Shown one piece after another: positions 3,017 to 15,271 of a stretch of 64,000 nt of DNA. Origin of the DNA: Pseudomonas sp. KBW05 (lineage in GTDB: Bacteria > Pseudomonadota > Gammaproteobacteria > Pseudomonadales > Pseudomonadaceae). Both the position numbers and the translations under genes were made by a program. Location of the stretch: the NCBI RefSeq assembly GCF_003852405.1, contig NZ_QAJM01000007.1:62001-126000 (forward strand). Reading direction: 5' to 3'. The notes under the pieces were generated by a model. That model was not told the DNA's origin and did not search any database. It saw nothing but the letters and a program-made list of their open reading frames with translations. The number at the start of each line of letters is the position of its first letter. Within the stretch, counting starts at the first letter, position 1.

Positions 3017-4462
3017 ATGGCTGCAAATGACACCACCCCGTTGATCGAGAAACGTTCGATCGACTACATCCCGGAAGCGGAAAGACACGGTCGTCTATTT
3101 AGCCAGTTCACCCTGTGGATGGGCGCCAACCTGCAAATCACCGCGATTGTCACCGGGGCCTTGGCCGTGGTGTTGGGCGGTGATGTGTTCTGGTCGTTGA
3201 TCGGTCTGTTCATCGGCCAGCTGCTGGGCGGTGGGGTCATGGCGTTGCATGCGGCGCAAGGGCCCAAGTTGGGCCTGCCGCAGATGATCTCCAGCCGGGT
3301 GCAGTTTGGTGTGTATGGCGCGGCGATTCCGATCGTGCTGGTGTGCCTGATGTACCTCGGGTTCACCGCGACGGGCACGGTGTTGTCCGGCCAGGCGCTA
3401 GGCCAGTTGTTTGGTGTCAGCGACAGTGTTGGCATCCTGATTTTCGCCAGTGTCATTGTGCTGGTGACGGTGCTCGGTTACCGGGTGATCCACTTCATCG
3501 GCCGCGTCGCCAGCGTCATTGGGGTGATTGCCTTTGTGTACCTGTTCAGCCGTCTGATGAGCCAGACCGACGTGGGTGCGCTCCTGCAAATCCGTCACTT
3601 CAGCTGGAGCAGTTTCCTGCTGGCGGTGTCGCTGGCGGCGTCCTGGCAGATCGCATTCGGCCCGTACGTGGCGGACTACTCGCGCTACTTGCCGAGCAGC
3701 ACGTCGTCAGTGAAAACCTTCCTCGCGGCAGGCGCGGGTTCGGTGATCGGTGCCCAGGTGGCGATGGTGCTCGGCGTGTTTGCCGCGGCCATGTCCAACG
3801 GGCAATTCGCCGGTCATGAGGTGGCCTACATCGTCGGTTTGAGCGGTACGGGTGCTACGGCTGCGTTGCTGTACTTCAGCATCGCGTTTGGCAAGGTGAC
3901 CATCTCTACGCTGAACTCCTACGGCAGCTTCATGTGCATCGCCACCATCGTCAGCGGTTTTCGCGGGCGTATGGAAGTCACGCGCATGCAGCGCCTGGTG
4001 TTCGTGCTGGCGATTGTCGGTACGGCGACCCTGATCGCGTTGCTCGGCCAGCACTCGTTCCTCGGTGCGTTCAAGTCGTTCATCTTGTTCCTGCTGGCGT
4101 TTTTCACGCCCTGGAGCGCGATCAACCTGGTGGACTACTACTGCATCACCCGCGACCGCTATGACGTGCCGGCGCTGGCCGATCCGAACGGTCGTTATGG
4201 CCGCTGGAACCTGCTGGGTATCAGCGTCTATGTGTTCGGTGTGTTGGTGCAGTTGCCGTTCATCTCCACCAAGTTCTACACCGGCCCTTTGGTGGCCGCC
4301 CTGGGCGATGTGGATATTTCCTGGATCATCGGCCTGGTACTGCCCGCCGCCCTGTACTACGTGTGTGCGAAAAAATGGCACGGCAGCGTGCCCGCTCAAC
4401 TGATCCTGCCAACAGAGCAGGGCGCTGTACCAACAACAACCGGGCTGGCGGCACAAGCCTGA
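3017..4462 (+). CDS. hutTu: Urocanate permease, NCS1 (cytosine/purine permease) family
   Basis: A 481-residue integral membrane protein with about 12 hydrophobic segments and the look of the NCS1/CodB family (cytosine, uracil, thiamine, allantoin transporters): an N-terminal SIDYIPEAERHG segment, then FTLWMGANLQ in the first membrane helix and FGPYVADYSRYLP in the middle. In SBW25 the NCS1 gene at this exact place between hutU and the ABC genes is HutTu, a urocanate-specific importer; that identity is inferred here from position and family. Urocanate is both carbon source and inducer, so uptake would also trigger derepression. The start is preceded by AGAGG. An AACAACAA motif (4432-4439) of the type bound by Hfq/Crc lies near the end of the gene. 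Confidence 0.85.
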   Translation: MAANDTTPLIEKRSIDYIPEAERHGRLFSQFTLWMGANLQITAIVTGALAVVLGGDVFWSLIGLFIGQLLGGGVMALHAAQGPKLGLPQMISSRVQFGVYGAAIPIVLVCLMYLGFTATGTVLSGQALGQLFGVSDSVGILIFASVIVLVTVLGYRVIHFIGRVASVIGVIAFVYLFSRLMSQTDVGALLQIRHFSWSSFLLAVSLAASWQIAFGPYVADYSRYLPSSTSSVKTFLAAGAGSVIGAQVAMVLGVFAAAMSNGQFAGHEVAYIVGLSGTGATAALLYFSIAFGKVTISTLNSYGSFMCIATIVSGFRGRMEVTRMQRLVFVLAIVGTATLIALLGQHSFLGAFKSFILFLLAFFTPWSAINLVDYYCITRDRYDVPALADPNGRYGRWNLLGISVYVFGVLVQLPFISTKFYTGPLVAALGDVDISWIIGLVLPAALYYVCAKKWHGSVPAQLILPTEQGAVPTTTGLAAQA

Positions 4463-4531: not shown

Positions 4532-5497
4532 ATGAAAATGCATAAAACCCTGATGGCTACCTTGCTTTCTGCAGGTTTGCTGGCCAGCGCTGGCGCTCAG
4601 GCGGCCGGCTGGTGCGAGTCCGGCAAACCGGTGAAATTCGCCGGCCTGAACTGGGAAAGCGGCATGTTGCTTACCGACATCCTGCAAACCGTGCTGGAAA
4701 AAGGCTACGACTGCAAAACCGATAGCCTGCCAGGCAATTCCATCACCATGGAAAACGCCCTGAGCAGCAATGACATCCAGGTGTTCGCCGAAGAATGGGT
4801 AGGCCGCAGCGAAGTCTGGAACAAGGCCGAGAAGGCCGGCAAAGTCGTCGGCGTTGGTGCGCCGGTGGTGGGTGCCATCGAAGGCTGGTACGTGCCGCGC
4901 TATGTGATCGAGGGCGATGCCAAACGCAAGCTGGAAGCCAAGGCGCCGGACCTGAAAACCATCGCCGACCTGGCCAAGTACGCCGCCGTGTTCAAGGACC
5001 AGGAAGAACCGTCCAAAGGCCGTTTCTACAACTGCCCGGCCGGTTGGACCTGTGAGCTGGACAACAGCGAAATGCTCAAGAGCTACGGCCTGGAAAGTTC
5101 CTACACCAACTTCCGCCCAGGCACCGGCCCGGCGCTGGATGCGGCGGTATTGTCGAGCTACAAGCGTGGCGAGCCGATCCTGTTCTACTACTGGTCGCCA
5201 ACGCCGCTGATGGGCCAGGTCGATCTGGTCAAGCTGGAAGAAAAAGCCGGTGTGGATAAGAGCGTGACCATCAAGGTCGGCCTGTCCAAGACCTTCCACG
5301 AGCAAGCCCCGGAACTGGTGGCCGTGCTGGAAAAGGTCAACCTGCCGATCGACCTGCTGAACCAGAACCTGGGTCGCATGGCCAAGGAGCGAATTGAGTC
5401 GCCAAAACTGGCGAAAATTTTCCTCAAGGAACATCCTGAAGTCTGGCACGCATGGGTGAGCGACGACGCAGCCAAGAAAATCGACGCGGCCTTGTAG
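4532..5497 (+). CDS. hutX: HutX, periplasmic histidine-binding protein of a betaine-type ABC importer
   Basis: A 321-residue secreted binding protein of the OpuAC (glycine betaine/proline) fold. The start at 4532 is chosen because it opens a clean signal peptide, MKMHKTLMATLLSAGLLASA followed by GAQAAG, with cleavage after AQA; an upstream in-frame GTG would spoil it. The mature part has WYVPRYVIEG and GWTC/PLMGQVDLVKL segments typical of betaine-type binding proteins. It precedes hutW and hutV, its permease and ATPase. In Pseudomonas HutXWV imports histidine although the family name suggests betaine; this specificity is inferred from the hut context. Confidence 0.9.
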   Translation: MKMHKTLMATLLSAGLLASAGAQAAGWCESGKPVKFAGLNWESGMLLTDILQTVLEKGYDCKTDSLPGNSITMENALSSNDIQVFAEEWVGRSEVWNKAEKAGKVVGVGAPVVGAIEGWYVPRYVIEGDAKRKLEAKAPDLKTIADLAKYAAVFKDQEEPSKGRFYNCPAGWTCELDNSEMLKSYGLESSYTNFRPGTGPALDAAVLSSYKRGEPILFYYWSPTPLMGQVDLVKLEEKAGVDKSVTIKVGLSKTFHEQAPELVAVLEKVNLPIDLLNQNLGRMAKERIESPKLAKIFLKEHPEVWHAWVSDDAAKKIDAAL

Positions 5498-5569
5498 GTC
5501 AAGTGTGCCCGGCTACCCTGAGGGGTCGGCCGGGCGCCTGGCCACAACCCATTGGATCGAGAGCACGAT

Positions 5570-6421
5570 ATGTTTCCTGAGAGTTTTACGTTTTCCATCG
5601 CCGACTGGGTCAACGGTTGGGTGGACTCACTGGTCACCAACTACGGTGATGTGTTCCGGCACATTTCCGACACCCTGTTGTGGGCCATCGTTAACCTGGA
5701 AGGGCTGCTGCGCGCGGCGCCCTGGTGGCTGATGCTGGCCATCGTCGGCGGCGTCGCCTGGCACGCCACCCGCAAGGTGGTGACCACGGCGGTGATCGTC
5801 GGTTTGCTGTTCCTGGTGGGCGCGGTTGGCCTGTGGGACAAGCTGATGCAGACGCTGGCCTTGATGATGGTCGCCACGGTGATCTCGGTGCTGATCGGCA
5901 TCCCGCTGGGCATCCTCTCGGCGCGCAGCAATCGCCTGCGTTCGGTGCTGATGCCGCTGCTGGACATCATGCAAACCATGCCGAGCTTCGTGTACCTGAT
6001 CCCGGTGCTGATGCTGTTTGGCCTAGGCAAGGTCCCGGCGATTTTCGCCACGGTGATCTACGCCGCGCCGCCACTGATTCGCCTGACCGACCTGGGCATT
6101 CGCCAGGTGGACGGCGAAGTCATGGAAGCCATCAACGCCTTTGGTGCCAACCGCTGGCAGCAACTGTTCGGCGTGCAACTGCCGCTGGCGCTGCCAAGCA
6201 TCATGGCCGGCATCAACCAGACGACCATGATGGCGCTGTCGATGGTGGTGATCGCCTCGATGATCGGTGCCCGCGGCTTGGGTGAAGACGTGTTGGTCGG
6301 CATCCAGACCCTCAACGTCGGGCGCGGCCTTGAGGCCGGCTTGGCGATCGTGATTCTCGCAGTGGTCATCGACCGCATTACCCAGGCCTATGGTCGTCCA
6401 CGGCATGAGGCGAGCAAATGA
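5570..6421 (+). CDS. hutW: HutW, ABC importer permease
   Basis: A 283-residue inner-membrane permease of the ProW/OpuAB type. Several hydrophobic helices occupy roughly residues 45-90 and 95-270, and the cytoplasmic coupling loop [20 protein letters not shown], which contacts the ATPase, lies near residues 170-190. The start at 5570 ([12 protein letters not shown]) is preferred over an in-frame TTG 18 bases upstream because the protein aligns from MFPES and GAGAG lies just before it. The gene overlaps hutV by four bases (ATGA), indicating coupled translation of permease and ATPase. Confidence 0.92.
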
Positions 6422-7242
6422 CTACTGTCAGCAAAATCGAAGTCAAAAACGTCTTCAAGATCTTCGGCGCCCGTTCCAAGGAAGCGCTGTCGCTGATCGG
6501 CCAGGGCAAGACCAAGGACCAGGTGCTGGCCGAGACCGGCTGTGTGGTCGGCGTGAACGACCTGTCCCTGAGCATCGGCACCGGTGAGATCTTTGTGATC
6601 ATGGGCCTGTCGGGCTCCGGCAAGTCCACCCTGGTGCGCCACTTCAACCGCCTGATCGACCCCACCAGCGGCGCGATCCTGGTGGACGGCGAAGACATCC
6701 TGCAACTGGACATGGAAGCCCTGCGCCAATTCCGTCGGCACAAGATCAGCATGGTGTTCCAGAGCTTCGGCCTGTTGCCCCACAAGAGCGTGCTCGACAA
6801 CGTCGCCTACGGCCTGAAAGTGCGCGGCGAAAGCAAGCAGGTGTGCGCCGAACGCGCGCTGCACTGGATCGAAACCGTGGGCCTCAAAGGCTACGAAAAC
6901 AAATACCCGCACCAGCTCTCCGGTGGCATGCGCCAGCGCGTTGGCCTGGCCCGGGCATTGGCGGCTGACACCGACATCATCCTCATGGACGAAGCGTTCA
7001 GCGCCCTCGACCCGCTGATCCGCGCCGAGATGCAGGACCAGTTGCTGGAGCTGCAAAAGACCCTGCACAAGACCATCGTGTTCATCACCCACGACCTTGA
7101 TGAAGCGGTGCGGATCGGCAACCGCATTGCGATCCTCAAGGACGGCAAGCTGATCCAGGTCGGCACGCCCCGCGAGATCCTGCATTCGCCGGCGGATGAG
7201 TATGTGGACCGGTTTGTTCAGCGGCGGGCGGCGGTGGTCTGA
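6418..7242 (+). CDS. hutV: HutV, ABC importer ATPase
   Basis: A 274-residue ATP-binding subunit. Walker A is GLSGSGKST near residue 63, the signature is LSGGMRQR near 162, Walker B is [13 protein letters not shown] near 187, and the H-loop is FITHDLDEA near 221. It resembles ProV/OpuAA but stops before the C-terminal CBS domains found in ProV (about 400 residues), so osmosensing through CBS is not expected. It drives HutW-mediated histidine uptake from HutX. It ends just before a cluster of REP repeats that separates it from hutH1. Confidence 0.93.
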
Positions 7243-7269: not shown

Positions 7270-7300
7270 CCTTTCGCGAGCAAGCCAGCTCCCACATTTG
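7270..7300. repeat. Single REP
   Basis: A solitary right-arm REP (ttcgcgagcaagccagctcc followed by cacat), using the cagctcc variant. With the REP at 7313 it forms a close inverted pair. Confidence 0.8.
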
Positions 7301-7310
7301 GAATGCATTC

Positions 7311-7450
7311 CCCTGTGGGAGCTGGCTTGCCTGCGATGAGGCCAGTGAAGCTGCACCAAAATTGAAGAAGGTATGAATCCCCCTGTGGGAGCGGGCTTGC
7401 TCGCGAAGAGGCCGGCAAAGCTACGCAAGAATTAACGAAGGTATGAAGAT
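7311..7450. repeat. 70-bp tandem duplication carrying REP plus hutH1 start region
   Basis: Two imperfect copies with an exact 70-bp period: 7311-7380 and 7381-7450. Each contains CCCTGTGGGA, a REP arm, a GAGGCC segment, an A-rich stretch and GAAGGTATGAA. In the second copy the GAAGG serves hutH1. In the first copy the same signal sits before a 20-codon reading frame (7373-7435). The REP in copy one is the ctggcttgcctgcgat variant, and in copy two the cgggcttgctcgcgaa variant. Confidence 0.8.
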
Positions 7451-8957
7451 GTCCCAGCCAACCAAAATCATCATCGCCAACACCCCATTACGTTGGCAGG
7501 ACGTGGTCGCCGTCGCTCGTCACGGCGCGGTCCTCGAGCTCTCGGGCCAAGCCTGGGCCCGCATCGACAATGCCCAGGCCATCGTGCAACGCATCGTCAC
7601 CAGCGGCGAACGCGCCTACGGCGTGAACACCGGCCTGGGCGCGTTGTGCAATGTCTCGCTCAAGGGCGAGCAACTCAGCCAGCTGTCGCGCAACACCCTG
7701 CTGAGCCACGCCTGTGGCGTCGGCCCGGTGCTCAGCGACGAACAGACCCGCGCCATCATCTGCGCCGCTGTCATCAACTACAGCCACGGCAAATCCGGCC
7801 TGCACCCGCAGGTGGTGCATGCGTTGCTGGCGCTGCTCAACCACGGCATCACGCCGCAAGTACCGTCCCAGGGCTCGGTGGGTTACCTGACCCACATGGC
7901 CCACGTCGGCGTGGCCTTGTTGGGTGTGGGCAATGTGAGCTATCGCGGTCGGATCGTTACGGCGCAAGAGGCATTGAGTGCCGAAGGTTTGCAGCCGGTG
8001 GTGCTCGGCGCCAAGGACGGCCTGTGCCTGGTCAACGGCACGCCGTGCATGACCGGCCTGAGCTGCCTGGCCCTGGCCGATGCGCACCCTTTGCTGCAAT
8101 GGGCCGACGTGATCGGCGCCATGAGTTTCGAGGCCCAGCGCGGCCAGATCGATGCGTTTGACGAAGAAATCATCGCCCTCAAGCCGCACCCGGGCATGCA
8201 GCACGTCGGTATCAACCTGCGTGCGCTGCTGGACGGCAGTGAAGTGATCGCCAGCAGCAAAGGCATCCGCACCCAGGATGCGTTGAGCATCCGCTCGATC
8301 CCGCAGATCCACGGTGCGGCCCGCGACCAGGTGGAACACGCCACGCGCCAGATCGAGACCGAACTCAACAGCGCCACCGACAACCCGCTGCTGCTCGGCA
8401 CGCCGGACAGCTACCGCGTGGTGTCCCAGGCCAACCCGCACGGGCAATCGGTTGCCCTGGCGGCGGACCTGCTCGCCATCGCCATGGCCGAGATCGGCTC
8501 GGTGGCCGAACGCCGCCTGGACCGCTTGATCAACCCGCATGTCAGCGGCTTGCCGGCGTTCCTCGTCAGCAACCCCGGGGTCAACTCCGGGATGATGATC
8601 GTGCAGTACGTCGCCGCGTCCCTGTGTGGGCAAAACCGCCAACTGGCGCAACCGGCGGTGCTCGACAACTTCGTCACTTCGGGCCTGCAGGAAGACCACC
8701 TGAGCATGGGCACCAACGCCGCGCTCAAGCTGCACCAGGTGTTGGCCAACGTCACGCAGATCCTCGCCATCGAGTATTTGCTGGCGGCCCAGGCGTTCGA
8801 ATTCCTGAAGGACCAGCGTTTCGGCGCCGGCACCGACCGCGCCTGGCGCTTGTTGCGCGAAGTGGTCCCCGCCTACGAACAAGACCGCTGGCTGGCGCCG
8901 GACATTGCCGCCGCCGCCCAGTTGCTCAAAGACACCGCGTTACCCAATTTGCACTGA
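7449..8957 (+). CDS. hutH1: HutH1, histidase-family protein lacking the MIO Ala-Ser-Gly triad
   Basis: A 502-residue member of the aromatic amino-acid ammonia-lyase family, paralogous to the adjacent hutH2. Conserved pieces include YGVNTGLG, LVNGTPCMTGLS, SATDNPLL, VNSGMMIVQY and QEDHLSMGTNAALK. At the catalytic loop it reads GSVGYLTHMAH (from residue 142), where active enzymes read [14 protein letters not shown]: the three residues that cyclise into the MIO cofactor are missing in frame. It is therefore unlikely to be a normal histidine ammonia-lyase. The frame is intact and codon use matches its neighbours, so it is not a simple pseudogene. The start at 7449 is preferred to an ATG at 7443 because GAAGG (7437-7441) is 7 bases away rather than 1. 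A regulatory, carrier or different lyase role is possible but unproven. Confidence 0.85.
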   Translation: MSQPTKIIIANTPLRWQDVVAVARHGAVLELSGQAWARIDNAQAIVQRIVTSGERAYGVNTGLGALCNVSLKGEQLSQLSRNTLLSHACGVGPVLSDEQTRAIICAAVINYSHGKSGLHPQVVHALLALLNHGITPQVPSQGSVGYLTHMAHVGVALLGVGNVSYRGRIVTAQEALSAEGLQPVVLGAKDGLCLVNGTPCMTGLSCLALADAHPLLQWADVIGAMSFEAQRGQIDAFDEEIIALKPHPGMQHVGINLRALLDGSEVIASSKGIRTQDALSIRSIPQIHGAARDQVEHATRQIETELNSATDNPLLLGTPDSYRVVSQANPHGQSVALAADLLAIAMAEIGSVAERRLDRLINPHVSGLPAFLVSNPGVNSGMMIVQYVAASLCGQNRQLAQPAVLDNFVTSGLQEDHLSMGTNAALKLHQVLANVTQILAIEYLLAAQAFEFLKDQRFGAGTDRAWRLLREVVPAYEQDRWLAPDIAAAAQLLKDTALPNLH

Positions 8958-8990: not shown

Positions 8991-10523
8991 GTGACTGCGC
9001 TAAATCTGATTCCAGGCCAACTGAGCCTTGCCCAACTGCGGGCTATCTACCAGCAGCCGGTGACACTCAGTCTGGATGACAGCGCCACGGCGCAGATCGA
9101 AGCCAGTGTGGCCTGCGTGGAGCAAATTCTCGCCGAGAACCGCACCGCCTACGGCATCAACACCGGTTTCGGCCTGCTGGCCTCGACCCGCATCGCCAGT
9201 GAAGACCTGGAAAACCTCCAGCGTTCCCTGGTGCTGTCCCACGCCGCCGGCGTCGGCGAGCCCATCAGCGATGCGCTGGTGCGGCTGGTCATGGTGCTCA
9301 AGGTCAACAGCCTCAGCCGTGGTTTCTCCGGGATTCGTCGGCAGGTGATCGACGCGTTGATCGCGCTGATCAATGCCGAGGTGTACCCGCACATTCCGCT
9401 GAAAGGTTCGGTGGGTGCCTCCGGTGACTTGGCGCCGTTGGCGCATATGTCCCTGGTGCTGCTGGGCGAAGGCAAGGCGCGCTACAAGGGCGAATGGCTG
9501 GAAGCCACCGAGGCGCTGAAAGTCGCCGGCCTGACGCCGCTGACCCTCGCCGCCAAAGAAGGCCTGGCGCTGCTCAACGGCACCCAGGTCTCCACCGCCT
9601 ACGCCTTGCGCGGCCTGTTTGAAGGTGAAGACCTGTTCGCCGGTGCCCTGGCGTGCGGCGCGCTCACCGTGGAAGCGGTGCTCGGTTCGCGCTCGCCATT
9701 CGACGCGCGTATTCACGCCGCTCGCGGCCAGCGCGGGCAGATCGACGCCGCCGCGGCCTATCGCGACCTGCTCGGCGAAAGCAGCCAGGTGTCGCAGTCG
9801 CACCAGAACTGCGACAAGGTACAAGACCCGTACTCCCTGCGTTGCCAGCCGCAAGTCATGGGCGCCTGCCTGACCCAGTTCCGCCAGGCTGCGGAAGTGC
9901 TGGTGGTCGAAGCCAACGCCGTGTCGGATAACCCGCTGGTATTTGCCGCCGAAGGCGACGTGATCTCCGGCGGTAACTTCCACGCCGAACCGGTGGCCAT
10001 GGCCGCTGACAACATGGCCCTGGCCATCGCTGAAATCGGCTCCCTCAGCGAGCGCCGTATCTCGTTGATGATGGACAAACACATGTCCCAACTGCCGCCG
10101 TTCCTGGTGGGCAATGGCGGGGTCAACTCCGGTTTCATGATCGCCCAGGTGACCGCTGCCGCGCTCGCCAGCGAGAACAAGGCGCTGGCCCACCCCCATA
10201 GCGTGGACAGCCTGCCAACCTCCGCCAACCAGGAAGACCATGTGTCGATGGCCCCGGCGGCGGGCAAGCGCCTGTGGGAAATGGCCGAGAACACCCGTGG
10301 CGTGTTGGCGGTCGAGTGGCTTGCGGCCTGCCAGGGCCTGGACCTGCGTGAAGGCCTGAAAACCTCGTCGAAGTTGGAAAAGGCCCGCGGCATCCTGCGC
10401 GACAAAGTGGCGTTCTATGAGAAGGACCGTTTCTTCGCCCCGGACATCAACGCCGCCAGCGAGTTGCTTGCCAGCCGCTGCCTGAATGAACTGGTGCCGG
10501 CCAAATTGCTGCCGAGCCTGTAA
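8991..10523 (+). CDS. hutH2: Histidine ammonia-lyase (histidase), catalytically complete copy
   Basis: Converts histidine to urocanate and ammonia, the first step of the pathway. The 510-residue protein carries the MIO-forming triad intact in [14 protein letters not shown] (ASG at 143-145), plus YGINTGFG near residue 52, [16 protein letters not shown] and QEDHVSMAP. It begins with GTG at 8991, behind AAAAGGAGTAGGAAT, 33 bp after hutH1. The presence of this full enzyme next to the triad-less HutH1 means that growth on histidine should depend on this gene. Confidence 0.96.
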
Positions 10524-12104: not shown

Positions 12105-12119
12105 TTTAGGGAGGCGTTG

Positions 12120-13325
12120 ATGAAAACGCTTTGGCAACACTGCCACGTCGCAACCATGGCGGGCGGCAAGTATTCGATCATCGAGGATGCTGCCCTGGTC
12201 ACCGCAGGTCAGCTCATCGAGTGGATCGGCCCCTTGGCCGAACTGCCCCAGGGTGACTATGCGCAGGTTCATGACCTGCAAGGCGCGTGGGTCACCCCCG
12301 GGCTGATCGACTGCCACACCCACACGGTGTTCGGTGGCAATCGCAGTGGCGAATTCGAGCAGCGCCTGGAAGGCGTGAGCTATGCCGACATCGCGGCCAA
12401 GGGCGGCGGGATTGCCAGCACCGTGCGCGCCACCCGCGCGGCGAGCGAAGATGAACTGTTCGAAAGCGCCCACAAACGCCTGCGCAGTTTGCTGCGCGAC
12501 GGCGTGACCACGGTGGAGATCAAGTCCGGTTATGGCCTGGACCTGGCCAACGAACGCAAGATGCTGCGCGTGGCCCGTCGCCTGGGTGAAGCGCTGCCGG
12601 TCAGCGTGCGCGCCACATGCCTGGCCGCTCATGCGTTGCCGCCGGAGTACAAGGACCGCGCCGACGATTACATCGAACACATCTGCCAAGAGATGCTGCC
12701 AGCCCTGGCAGCCGAAGGGCTGGTGGACGCGGTGGACGCGTTCTGCGAATACCTGGCGTTTTCTACCGAGCAGGTCGAGCGCGTGTTCAAGGTCGCCCAG
12801 CACTTGGGCCTGCCGGTGAAACTGCACGCCGAGCAACTCTCGTCGCTGCACGGCTCCAGCCTGGCGGCGCGGTATCACGCGTTGTCGGCGGACCACCTGG
12901 AGTTCATGACCGAAGCAGACGCCATCGCCATGGCCGCCTCCGGCACCGTCGCCGTGTTGCTGCCGGGGGCGTTCTACTTCCTGCGCGAAACCCAGCTGCC
13001 GCCAATGGACGCCCTGCGCAAGCACGGCGTGAAGATCGCCATCGCCAGCGACCTCAACCCCGGCACCTCGCCGGCGTTGTCGGTGCGCCTGATGCTGAAC
13101 ATGGCCTGCACCTTGTTCCGCATGACCCCGGAAGAAGCCCTGGCCGGTGCCACGCAACATGCTGCGACGGCGCTGGGCATGGGCGACACCCACGGCTCCC
13201 TGGAAGTGGGCAAGGTCGCGGATTTTGTCGCCTGGCAGATTGATCGTCCCGCCGACCTGGCCTACTGGCTGGGCGGCGAACTGGATAAACGCGTCGTGCG
13301 CCACGGCGTCGATGTCACCGTCTGA
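12120..13325 (+). CDS. hutI: Imidazolonepropionase
   Basis: Hydrolyses 4-imidazolone-5-propionate to N-formimino-glutamate, step three of the pathway. The 401-residue amidohydrolase-fold protein shows the metal-binding motif [20 protein letters not shown] near residues 62-80, HAEQ near 240 and the metal aspartate in SDLNPGTSP near 314. The start is the ATG at 12120, not the TTG at 12117, with GGGAGG about 6 bases upstream. It ends with TGA at 13323-13325, inside the ribosome binding region of hutG, so translation of the two is probably linked. Confidence 0.97.
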
Positions 13326-13336
13326 GGAGTAGGGTT

Positions 13337-14137
13337 GTGGATAAGGTTCTGAACTTCAAACAAGGCCGGGTGCCGCTGCTGATCAGCATGCCCCACGCGG
13401 GTCTGCGCCTGACGCCTGCGGTCGAGGCCGGGTTGATCCCCGAGGCACAAAGCCTGCCGGACACCGACTGGCATATCCCCACGTTGTATGACTTTGCCGA
13501 GGCGCTGGGTGCCAGCACTTTGTCAGCCGAATACTCACGGTTTGTGATCGACCTGAACCGGCCATCCGACGACAAGCCGCTGTATGTCGGCGCCACCACC
13601 GGGCTGTATCCGGCCACGTTGTTCGACGGCGTGCCGTTGTTCCGTGAGGGGCTGGAGCCGAACGAGACAGAACGCGCCAGTTACTTGCAGAAGATTTGGG
13701 GCCCGTATCACCGCACGCTGCAGGAGGAACTGGCACGGCTCAAGGCCGAGTTCGGCTACGCGTTGCTGTTTGATGCGCACTCGATCCGCTCGGTGATCCC
13801 GCACCTGTTCGACGGCAAGCTGCCGGACTTCAACCTCGGCACCTTCAATGGCGCTGCCTGTGATCCCGAGTTGGCCAGCCAACTGGAAGCCATCTGCGCC
13901 GGGCATACGCAGTACAGCCATGTGTTGAACGGGCGCTTCAAGGGCGGGCATATCACCCGCCATTACGGCAACCCTGCGCAGGATATTCATGCGGTGCAGC
14001 TGGAGTTGTGCCAGAGCACCTATATGGAAGAGGTTGAGCCGTTTCGTTATCGGGCGGATCTGGCTGAGCCGACGCGGGTGGTGTTGAAGCAGTTGTTGGA
14101 AGGGGTGTTGGCCTGGGGGCAGAAGCGTTACGGCTGA
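13337..14137 (+). CDS. hutG: N-formylglutamate amidohydrolase (deformylase)
   Basis: Releases formate from N-formylglutamate to give glutamate, the last step of the five-step route used by pseudomonads in which the formimino group is first deaminated by HutF. The 266-residue protein opens with VPLLISMPHAGLRLTP and carries LLFDAHSIRS and GGHITRHYG, conserved in the FGase family. It begins with GTG at 13337 behind GAGGAG (13324-13329). hutF itself is not in the window and in relatives lies beyond hutC. Confidence 0.95.
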   Translation: MDKVLNFKQGRVPLLISMPHAGLRLTPAVEAGLIPEAQSLPDTDWHIPTLYDFAEALGASTLSAEYSRFVIDLNRPSDDKPLYVGATTGLYPATLFDGVPLFREGLEPNETERASYLQKIWGPYHRTLQEELARLKAEFGYALLFDAHSIRSVIPHLFDGKLPDFNLGTFNGAACDPELASQLEAICAGHTQYSHVLNGRFKGGHITRHYGNPAQDIHAVQLELCQSTYMEEVEPFRYRADLAEPTRVVLKQLLEGVLAWGQKRYG

Positions 14138-14335: not shown

Positions 14336-15271
14336 ATGCAAAAAACCTTGTTGAGCCTCATCGGCGCCGCACTGTTCAGTGCACACGCCATGGCCGCCGA
14401 ACCCGCTTCCTGCAAAAGCATCCGCATGGGTGTGGTCAGTTGGACCGACGTGGTCGCCACCTCCGGCATGGCCGACGTGCTGCTCAATGGCCTGGGCTAC
14501 GACAGCAAGCAGACCAGCGCCGTGCAGCAGATCATCTTTGCCGGCATCCGCGACAAGCGCTTGGACATCTTCCTCGGCTACTGGAAACCGGCGATGGACA
14601 ACAACATCGCGCCGTTCCTCGCCGCCAAACAGGTCAAGGTCTTTGATAAACCCAGCCTCGCCGATGCCCAGGCGACCCTGGCCGTGCCGCAATACGTGGC
14701 CGACGCGGGCTTGAAAACCTTTGCCGATATTGCTCGCTTCAAGGACAAGCTGGGCGGCAAGCTCTACGGCATCGAGCCCGGCAGCGGCGCGAACACCGAT
14801 ATCCAGAAAATGATCGACACCAACCGCTTCGGCCTTGGCGGCTTCAAGCTGGTGGCCTCCGGTGAGGCGGGCATGCTGGCGGCAGTGCAGCGTGCGGTGA
14901 ACCGCAAGGAGTTCGTGGTATTTGTCGGTTGGACCCCGCACCCGATGAACATCAATATGAAAATGGCCTACCTCACCGGCAGTGAGGACGTGTTCGGCCC
15001 CGACGAAGGTCGCGCCACGGTGTCCACCGTCACCGCGCCGGACTTCGCCGAGCGCTGCCCCAATGCCAACCGCCTGCTGGAAAACCTCACCTACACGGCC
15101 GCCCAGGAGAGCCAGTTGATGGTGCCGATCATGGAACGCCAGTCGCCGCAGGATGTGGCCAGGCAGTGGTTGCGCGACCATCCCGAGGATTTGCAGCGCT
15201 GGCTGGCGGGAGTGACGGCGTTTGATGGCAAGGATGGCGTGGCGGCTGTACAGGCTAGCCTCAAACCCTGA
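14336..15271 (+). CDS. Choline/betaine-type ABC substrate-binding protein (orphan)
   Basis: A 311-residue periplasmic binding protein of the OpuAC fold with signal peptide MQKTLLSLIGAALFSAHAMA, cleaved before AEPAS. The segments MGVVSWTDVVATSGMADVLL, DIFLGYWKPAMDNNI and FVVFVGWTPHPMNINMKMAYL resemble ChoX/BetX/CaiX-type choline, betaine or carnitine binding proteins, in which the aromatic residues form the quaternary-amine cage. No permease or ATPase gene adjoins it; the nearest of the right family are hutW and hutV. It may act as an alternative binding protein for those or for a distant CbcWV-like transporter. Ligand specificity cannot be decided from the sequence. Confidence 0.85.
   Translation: MQKTLLSLIGAALFSAHAMAAEPASCKSIRMGVVSWTDVVATSGMADVLLNGLGYDSKQTSAVQQIIFAGIRDKRLDIFLGYWKPAMDNNIAPFLAAKQVKVFDKPSLADAQATLAVPQYVADAGLKTFADIARFKDKLGGKLYGIEPGSGANTDIQKMIDTNRFGLGGFKLVASGEAGMLAAVQRAVNRKEFVVFVGWTPHPMNINMKMAYLTGSEDVFGPDEGRATVSTVTAPDFAERCPNANRLLENLTYTAAQESQLMVPIMERQSPQDVARQWLRDHPEDLQRWLAGVTAFDGKDGVAAVQASLKP

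Follow-up and report, generated by a model that had tools for sequence, protein, structure and literature searches.

HutH1, a conserved histidase paralogue lacking the MIO-forming triad in Pseudomonas hut operons, is a candidate hercynine lyase

The window, i.e. the whole stretch of 64,000 nucleotides from Pseudomonas sp. KBW05 that was analysed, contains a hut operon, where the genes follow each other in the order hutU, hutTu, hutX, hutW, hutV, hutH1, hutH2, hutTh, hutI, hutG. Transporter names are taken from the passages available of PMC8871633, which describe the P. fluorescens SBW25 counterpart of hutTu as a urocanate transporter; the remaining hut names are derived from homology. The open reading frame of hutX is listed from 4469, and the ATG at 4532 was chosen as its start. 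The genes are reported below, with "L" and "G" numbers indicating loci and genomes, respectively.

1188-2858, + strand: hutU, urocanase, assigned by sequence and position (relatives annotated hutU in L057, L062, L063 and L067)
3017-4462, + strand: hutTu, cytosine/purine-type permease (Pfam PF02133)
4532-5497, + strand: hutX, binding protein of an ABC importer, OpuAC (glycine-betaine) class (Pfam)
5552-6421, + strand: hutW, permease, best NCBIfam match ChoW/ProW, below cut-offs
6418-7242, + strand: hutV, ATPase resembling ProV, above the cut-off of NCBIfam TIGR01186 (betaine/proline/choline family)
7449-8957, + strand: hutH1, MIO-less PF00221 lyase of 502 amino acids, intact open reading frame
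8991-10523, + strand: hutH2, canonical ASG histidase, by translation and family profile
12117-13325, + strand: hutI, imidazolonepropionase, by homology (relatives annotated hutI in L056, L065 and L067)
13337-14137, + strand: hutG, N-formylglutamate deformylase, by homology (relatives annotated hutG in L057, L065 and L067)

A second OpuAC-type substrate-binding protein is encoded at 14336-15271, just downstream of hutG. REP-like repeats are located between hutV and hutH1 (7280-7400), with motif matches at 7280, 7315 and 7385; further matches to the same motif are found across the window.

The hutH1 frame is open over 7443-8957 and, as originally stated, shows no damage, as judged from the list of open reading frames and the translation. 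The ATG at 7449 is a plausible start: the GAAGG ahead of it is, by eye, better spaced. The protein matches Pfam PF00221 over its full length (551 bits, profile positions 1-466 of 466). It scores 552.9 bits against NCBIfam PRK09367 (cut-off 524), and is thereby called a histidine ammonia-lyase, while falling just below the cut-off of TIGR01225 hutH (537.9 against 539.15 bits). The original prediction described a clean, three-residue loss of Ala-Ser-Gly (ASG), from which the MIO group is made. When HutH1 is fully aligned to the HutH2 of the window, the net loss is indeed of three residues, but the Asp following the triad is gone too (GSVGY---LTHMAH): a single Tyr takes the place of the four residues ASGD.

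Active-site positions (Tyr53, His83, Asn195, Gln277, Arg283, Glu414) are given in P. putida histidase numbering; Tyr53, Y57 in HutH1, is assumed to be the catalytic base, and His83, H87 in HutH1, the imidazole ligand. The corresponding HutH1 positions, obtained by alignment, are as follows.

7617-7619, + strand: Y57, histidase Tyr53, kept
7707-7709, + strand: H87, histidase His83, kept
7872-7904, + strand: MIO-loop equivalent GSVGYLTHMAH, residues 142-152, with histidase ASGD changed to a single Tyr (Y146)
8034-8036, + strand: N196, histidase Asn195, kept
8274-8294, + strand: QDALSIR, residues 276-282, with Gln277 and Arg283 kept and Tyr280 changed to Leu279
8436-8438, + strand: P330, replacing histidase Phe329
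8691-8693, + strand: E415, histidase Glu414, kept

Lacking Ala-Ser-Gly-Asp, Tyr280 and Phe329, HutH1 cannot make MIO in the established way. The retained residues are presumably those binding the imidazole and the carboxylate and taking the proton.

Conservation of these features was evaluated on 302 distinct family proteins, classed by best reference match with the loop masked (one of 342 rows was dropped because of its length). All 141 HutH1-class proteins lack ASG and feature the GY loop, while ASG is present in all 140 histidase-class proteins. His83, Asn195, Gln277, Arg283 and Glu414 are found in 141 out of 141 HutH1-class proteins, and Tyr53 in 140, the remaining one showing a gap. Tyr280 is replaced by Leu in all of them, Phe329 by Pro in 125 and by Ala in 16. 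In the histidase class ASG, Tyr280, Phe329 and the other six residues are unchanged in 140 out of 140. HutH1 has thus lost neither the catalytic base nor the substrate residues, a loss expected of a pseudoenzyme. As far as the alignment indicates, three features on the amine side are altered together (ASGD to Tyr, Tyr280 to Leu, Phe329 to Pro or Ala); a change confined to the amine side is what a substrate with a different amine, and so with a different leaving group, would lead one to expect. Leu for Tyr280 is also found in 14 of the 17 other non-ASG proteins, outside the HutH1 class. Three proteins of the L039 group have no ASG, yet retain Tyr280 and Phe329, indicating that the changes are not coupled everywhere. 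Four proteins of a third paralogue type contain ASG, with Gln for Glu414; the third PF00221 gene of the KBW05 genome, located outside the window (L003, G000:C65:152996-154393), shows the same two features.

Of 200 genomes sampled from the genus, the window's own included, 138 encode a HutH1 orthologue with at least 57% identity; in 57 others every match is a more distant family member, and the remaining 5 give none. Orthologues were read from 46 of the 138 genomes (30 and 16 loci) and from 80 named GTDB loci, all Pseudomonas, the closest 80 of 579 relatives. At the phylum level, a HutH1-clade profile found 23 members in 398 genomes, scoring 712-892 bits, the next matches being at 508 bits or less; the GSxGY loop is present in 23 out of 23, and ASG in the 7 proteins fetched from below the score gap. 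HutH1-type loops are also found on plasmids of Erwinia, Burkholderia, Rhizobium, Sinorhizobium and Aminobacter and, more distantly, of Priestia.

The selection check was run on 114 loci with both hutH1 and hutH2, at least one genome being counted twice: median pairwise dN/dS is 0.109 for HutH1 and 0.061 for HutH2 (6428 of 6441 pairs usable), and the dN of HutH1 exceeds that of HutH2 about twofold (median ratio 2.1). The loss of ASG is old and hutH1 is under purifying selection, as the original prediction had supposed in calling the gene maintained. Orthologues carrying the triad were looked for, and none was found among the 141 HutH1-class proteins. A loss private to this genome, or a sequencing error at the loop, is excluded by the GY loop in all of them; recent decay is likewise ruled out, the triad being uniformly absent and dN/dS about 0.11. 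By parsimony, ASG may have been lost once, as in a 55-row tree, or twice, as in a 64-row tree, neither of which has a fixed root; L062 and the L039 group have weakly supported placement in the trees.

In some hut clusters every lyase lacks ASG. Genome G501, rated 100% complete, has a hut operon composed of hutU, a BCCT carrier gene, hutH1, hutI and hutG, with hutC, hutD and hutF nearby, and no HutH2-type histidase in the genome; its other two PF00221 genes encode an ASG protein of the third paralogue type and, in the same cluster, a MIO-less protein of the GAAD type. Two Klebsiella plasmids feature hutU, hutC, hutD, hutF, an OpuAC importer and a side-branch MIO-less lyase, with loop GSVGYLIATAH and Gly for Asn195 (L063, L064); the L063 stretch extends into hutI as well. 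On a Priestia plasmid, hutU and hutI are accompanied by a MIO-less lyase. In both the Klebsiella and the Priestia plasmid records, a single place per record matches HutH1. The occurrence of HutH1 beside ordinary hutU and hutI genes points to an unmodified imidazole, i.e. to the conversion of hercynine into urocanate and trimethylamine. A hutU neighbour does not by itself fix the substrate, as in Paracoccus an ergothionase-branch enzyme is likewise encoded in an ordinary hut operon (L067).

Importers were surveyed in 122 HutH1 loci of more than 7 kb, many from close Pseudomonas relatives and hence not independent. A QAT/OpuAC ABC importer is present in 95 of them and a BCCT carrier in 5; one locus, L178, features both, its betaine-type ABC adjoining another lyase. 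A polar amino-acid ABC importer (HisJ-like, SBP_bac_3) is found in 16, and no importer of the kinds sought in 7, one of them incomplete. A candidate polar amino-acid importer in L185 was rejected, the gene being a MacB-type exporter. In several loci, hutU and hutH1 are separated by some 1.6 kb at first unaccounted for; a BCCT carrier was expected there, an expectation unrecorded beforehand, and Pfam PF02028 was found in 4 out of 4 tested. All 94 HutH1 loci having hutWV also have hutX. As a control, 20 hut loci were collected from HutH1-less Pseudomonas (20 of 40 genomes searched, out of the 57 whose only matches are more distant family members): by tblastn, these importers are absent from 18 out of 20, one of the 18 being incomplete. 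The other two (L206, L207) retain hutWV, neither with an intact hutX: L206 gives no hutX match, and in L207 only fragments of 46 and 20 residues are left, together with 19 bases which may be a remnant of the 3' end of hutH1 (a weak match, E 0.64). HutX and HutH1 thus appear to be present or absent as a pair, as judged from two losses; this pairing would tie the ligand of HutX to the substrate of HutH1.

The above observations are probably best explained if HutH1 is a working, MIO-independent beta-elimination lyase, most likely converting hercynine (histidine betaine) into urocanate and trimethylamine; substrate, product and mechanism are here inferred. An enzyme with different chemistry was among the options of the original prediction, and agrees with this reading. 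Hercynine (N-alpha-trimethylhistidine) would be taken up by HutXWV or, in other genomes, by the BCCT carrier. In the active site, His87 and Glu415 would hold the imidazole end, and Arg282 and Asn196 the carboxylate, while Tyr57, the counterpart of histidase Tyr53, would be the base that takes the beta proton. Trimethylamine would then depart unaided: since quaternary ammonium groups leave readily by themselves, no MIO adduct should be needed. The trimethylammonium pocket may correspond to the space vacated by ASGD, Tyr280 and Phe329, with loop Tyr146 as a wall. The urocanate produced would enter the ordinary HutU-HutI-HutF-HutG route, and would relieve HutC repression.

Several observations weigh against hercynine as the substrate. 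Sixteen of the 122 loci carry a HisJ-like importer and seven none of those sought; histidine uptake is reported for HutXWV. A sarcosine-oxidase-like gene, solA, accompanies HutH1 at four loci, three of Rhizobium/Sinorhizobium type and one from Pseudomonas (L057, L065, L189, L040), a neighbour for which a plain hercynine lyase would have no use. Two more distant copies (L037, L038; 48-49%) have no hut gene nearby. Finally, the sulfur of ergothioneine may help to activate the substrate, and hercynine lacks it.

Part of this evidence would fit a MIO-independent lyase acting on some other N-substituted histidine (dimethylhistidine, a ring-methylated histidine betaine, an opine-like N-alkyl histidine), or on substrates varying among subclades. 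Importers of the HisJ/octopine type in 16 of the 122 loci, the solA-like oxidase in the four loci just listed, and copies with no nearby hut gene (L037, L038, L061, L184) all point in this direction. The presence, in many loci, of two unrelated kinds of betaine-class carriers does not, and secondary and tertiary amines, on general chemical grounds, leave less readily when no MIO is available; this explanation is considered rather unlikely. Still less probable is that HutH1 is an ergothionase, producing trimethylamine and thiourocanate, or its sulfonate, from ergothioneine, or its sulfonate. The two enzymes belong to the same family, lack MIO and share Leu for Tyr280 (PDB 6s7j), but they fall into separate tree clades, their loops are different, and Asn195 is kept in HutH1. 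The neighbourhoods differ as well: HutH1 is near ordinary hutU and hutI, while the ergothionase-like gene of a Pseudomonas genome, G044, shares its strand with a divergent hutU (49%) and is near an S-Me-THD protein. The latter presumably has a role in a thio-substrate (ergothioneine-type) pathway, so that the G044 arrangement is as expected for a thio-substrate.

The preference of the original prediction, a maintained pseudoenzyme (here taken to bind histidine or urocanate, or to form mixed tetramers with HutH2, and to act as a non-catalytic regulator of the pathway), appears distinctly unlikely. It would account for the absence of ASG in all 141 HutH1-class proteins, for the position of hutH1 next to hutH2 in the window, and for the growth of SBW25 on histidine without hutH1, reported in the passages seen of PMC8871633. 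The catalytic base and the substrate residues are, however, retained in the 141 proteins (Tyr53 in 140, with one gap), G501 holds HutH1 in a hut operon without any HutH2-type histidase to act as a partner, and in the Klebsiella and Priestia plasmid records the sole HutH1 match is the MIO-less lyase of a hut cluster; nor does a pseudoenzyme predict linkage to betaine transporters. That HutH1 is a non-functional or decaying paralogue is hardly credible: dN is about twice that of HutH2 and 62 of the 200 genus genomes lack the gene, but dN/dS is about 0.1, active-site residues are conserved in the 141 proteins, and the clade is carried by 23 of 398 phylum genomes.

HutH1, probably a hercynine lyase, is annotated as a histidase; it is encoded by 138 of the 200 genomes sampled in the genus, yet it is dispensable on histidine in SBW25, according to the consulted part of PMC8871633. 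The proposed role, if true, would explain this dispensability, provide a natural ligand for the HutXWV importer, add to the known ways in which bacteria release trimethylamine, and allow a number of histidine ammonia-lyase annotations to be put right. In the literature searched, where subscription papers are mostly outside coverage, no description of a hercynine lyase was found. PA5093, presumably the second histidase-like gene of PAO1, would correspond to HutH1 in P. aeruginosa rather than to the third PF00221 gene (L003). The name hutG, used for it in PMC12772324, is at odds with this. For Pseudomonas sp. J380 under low iron, the portion available of PMC8069873 reports positive changes for two hutH genes (1.13 and 1.37), one of which we infer, from length and place, to be the HutH1 orthologue.

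Other MIO-less PF00221 proteins were encountered. Those of L066, L178 (4510-6045), L198, L200, L233, L196, L199 and L202 feature GAAD, GESD, GAGD or GCAD loops; L066, L178, L200, L233 and L196 have in their vicinity an OpuAC protein or one annotated as binding glycine betaine, and in some cases a HutC-like regulator; no such binding protein was seen near L198, L199 and L202. As His83 is replaced by Arg in several of them (5 out of 7, L233 being left out), these proteins probably act on other betaines. L039 (4829-6370), L193 and L195 form a separate group (GSVGYLGPEGH or GSVGYLAVEGH), located by a polar amino-acid ABC importer. L058, on the Sinorhizobium meliloti plasmid pCpl (8530-13513), contains an ergothionase-branch lyase (GSVGQADMT), near a gene annotated as dimethylsulfoniopropionate lyase and an ABC importer. 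In G044, whose genome also contains HutH1 and HutH2, positions 4448-10270 of L197 (G044:C10:42000-53000) are likely to be an ergothioneine-type catabolic cluster. A wider picture may be tentatively drawn, on which doubt and belief are nearly balanced. The histidase fold would host a large and mostly mis-annotated set of MIO-independent betaine lyases of more than one origin (HutH1/GSxGY; ergothionase/GAAD), to which the Klebsiella plasmids and Priestia would contribute side branches. These would often be paired with OpuAC, BCCT or other importers, each feeding a different quaternary amine into ordinary catabolism; the HutH1 of most Pseudomonas species would be the hercynine lyase linking histidine betaine of fungal or mycobacterial origin to hut.

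Among known systems, the hutH1 gene of P. fluorescens SBW25 is a close counterpart, and the passages available of PMC8871633 mention neither a missing MIO triad nor another substrate. Histidine ammonia-lyase (HutH2 of the window, PDB 1b8f) has in common with HutH1 the fold family, the residues on the imidazole and carboxylate sides, the operon and the predicted product, urocanate. The claim that all known members of the family make MIO fails on ergothionase (Treponema denticola, PDB 6s7j/6s7q), a PF00221 protein like HutH1, which frees trimethylamine from ergothioneine without MIO, as reported in the part seen of PMC13405746 (2026). The 6s7j loop, SSIGEGDITTLSH, does not contain ASG. Like HutH1, 6s7j has Leu at the Tyr280 position and keeps Tyr53, His83, Gln277, Arg283 and Glu414. 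It differs in acting on a thio-substrate, in keeping Phe329, which is Pro or Ala in HutH1, in the loop (SSIGE-GD, from SSIGEGDITT, against GSVGY---L), and in position 195, where HutH1 keeps Asn, while 6s7j and four relatives feature Ser. In a tree built after removal of the loop columns, HutH1 (20 rows) and the ergothionase branch (12 rows) form separate clades, both supported 100/100, and the separation is repeated in the second tree (55 rows). HutH1 would thus appear to resemble ergothionase in the way it works, and not because the two are closely related.
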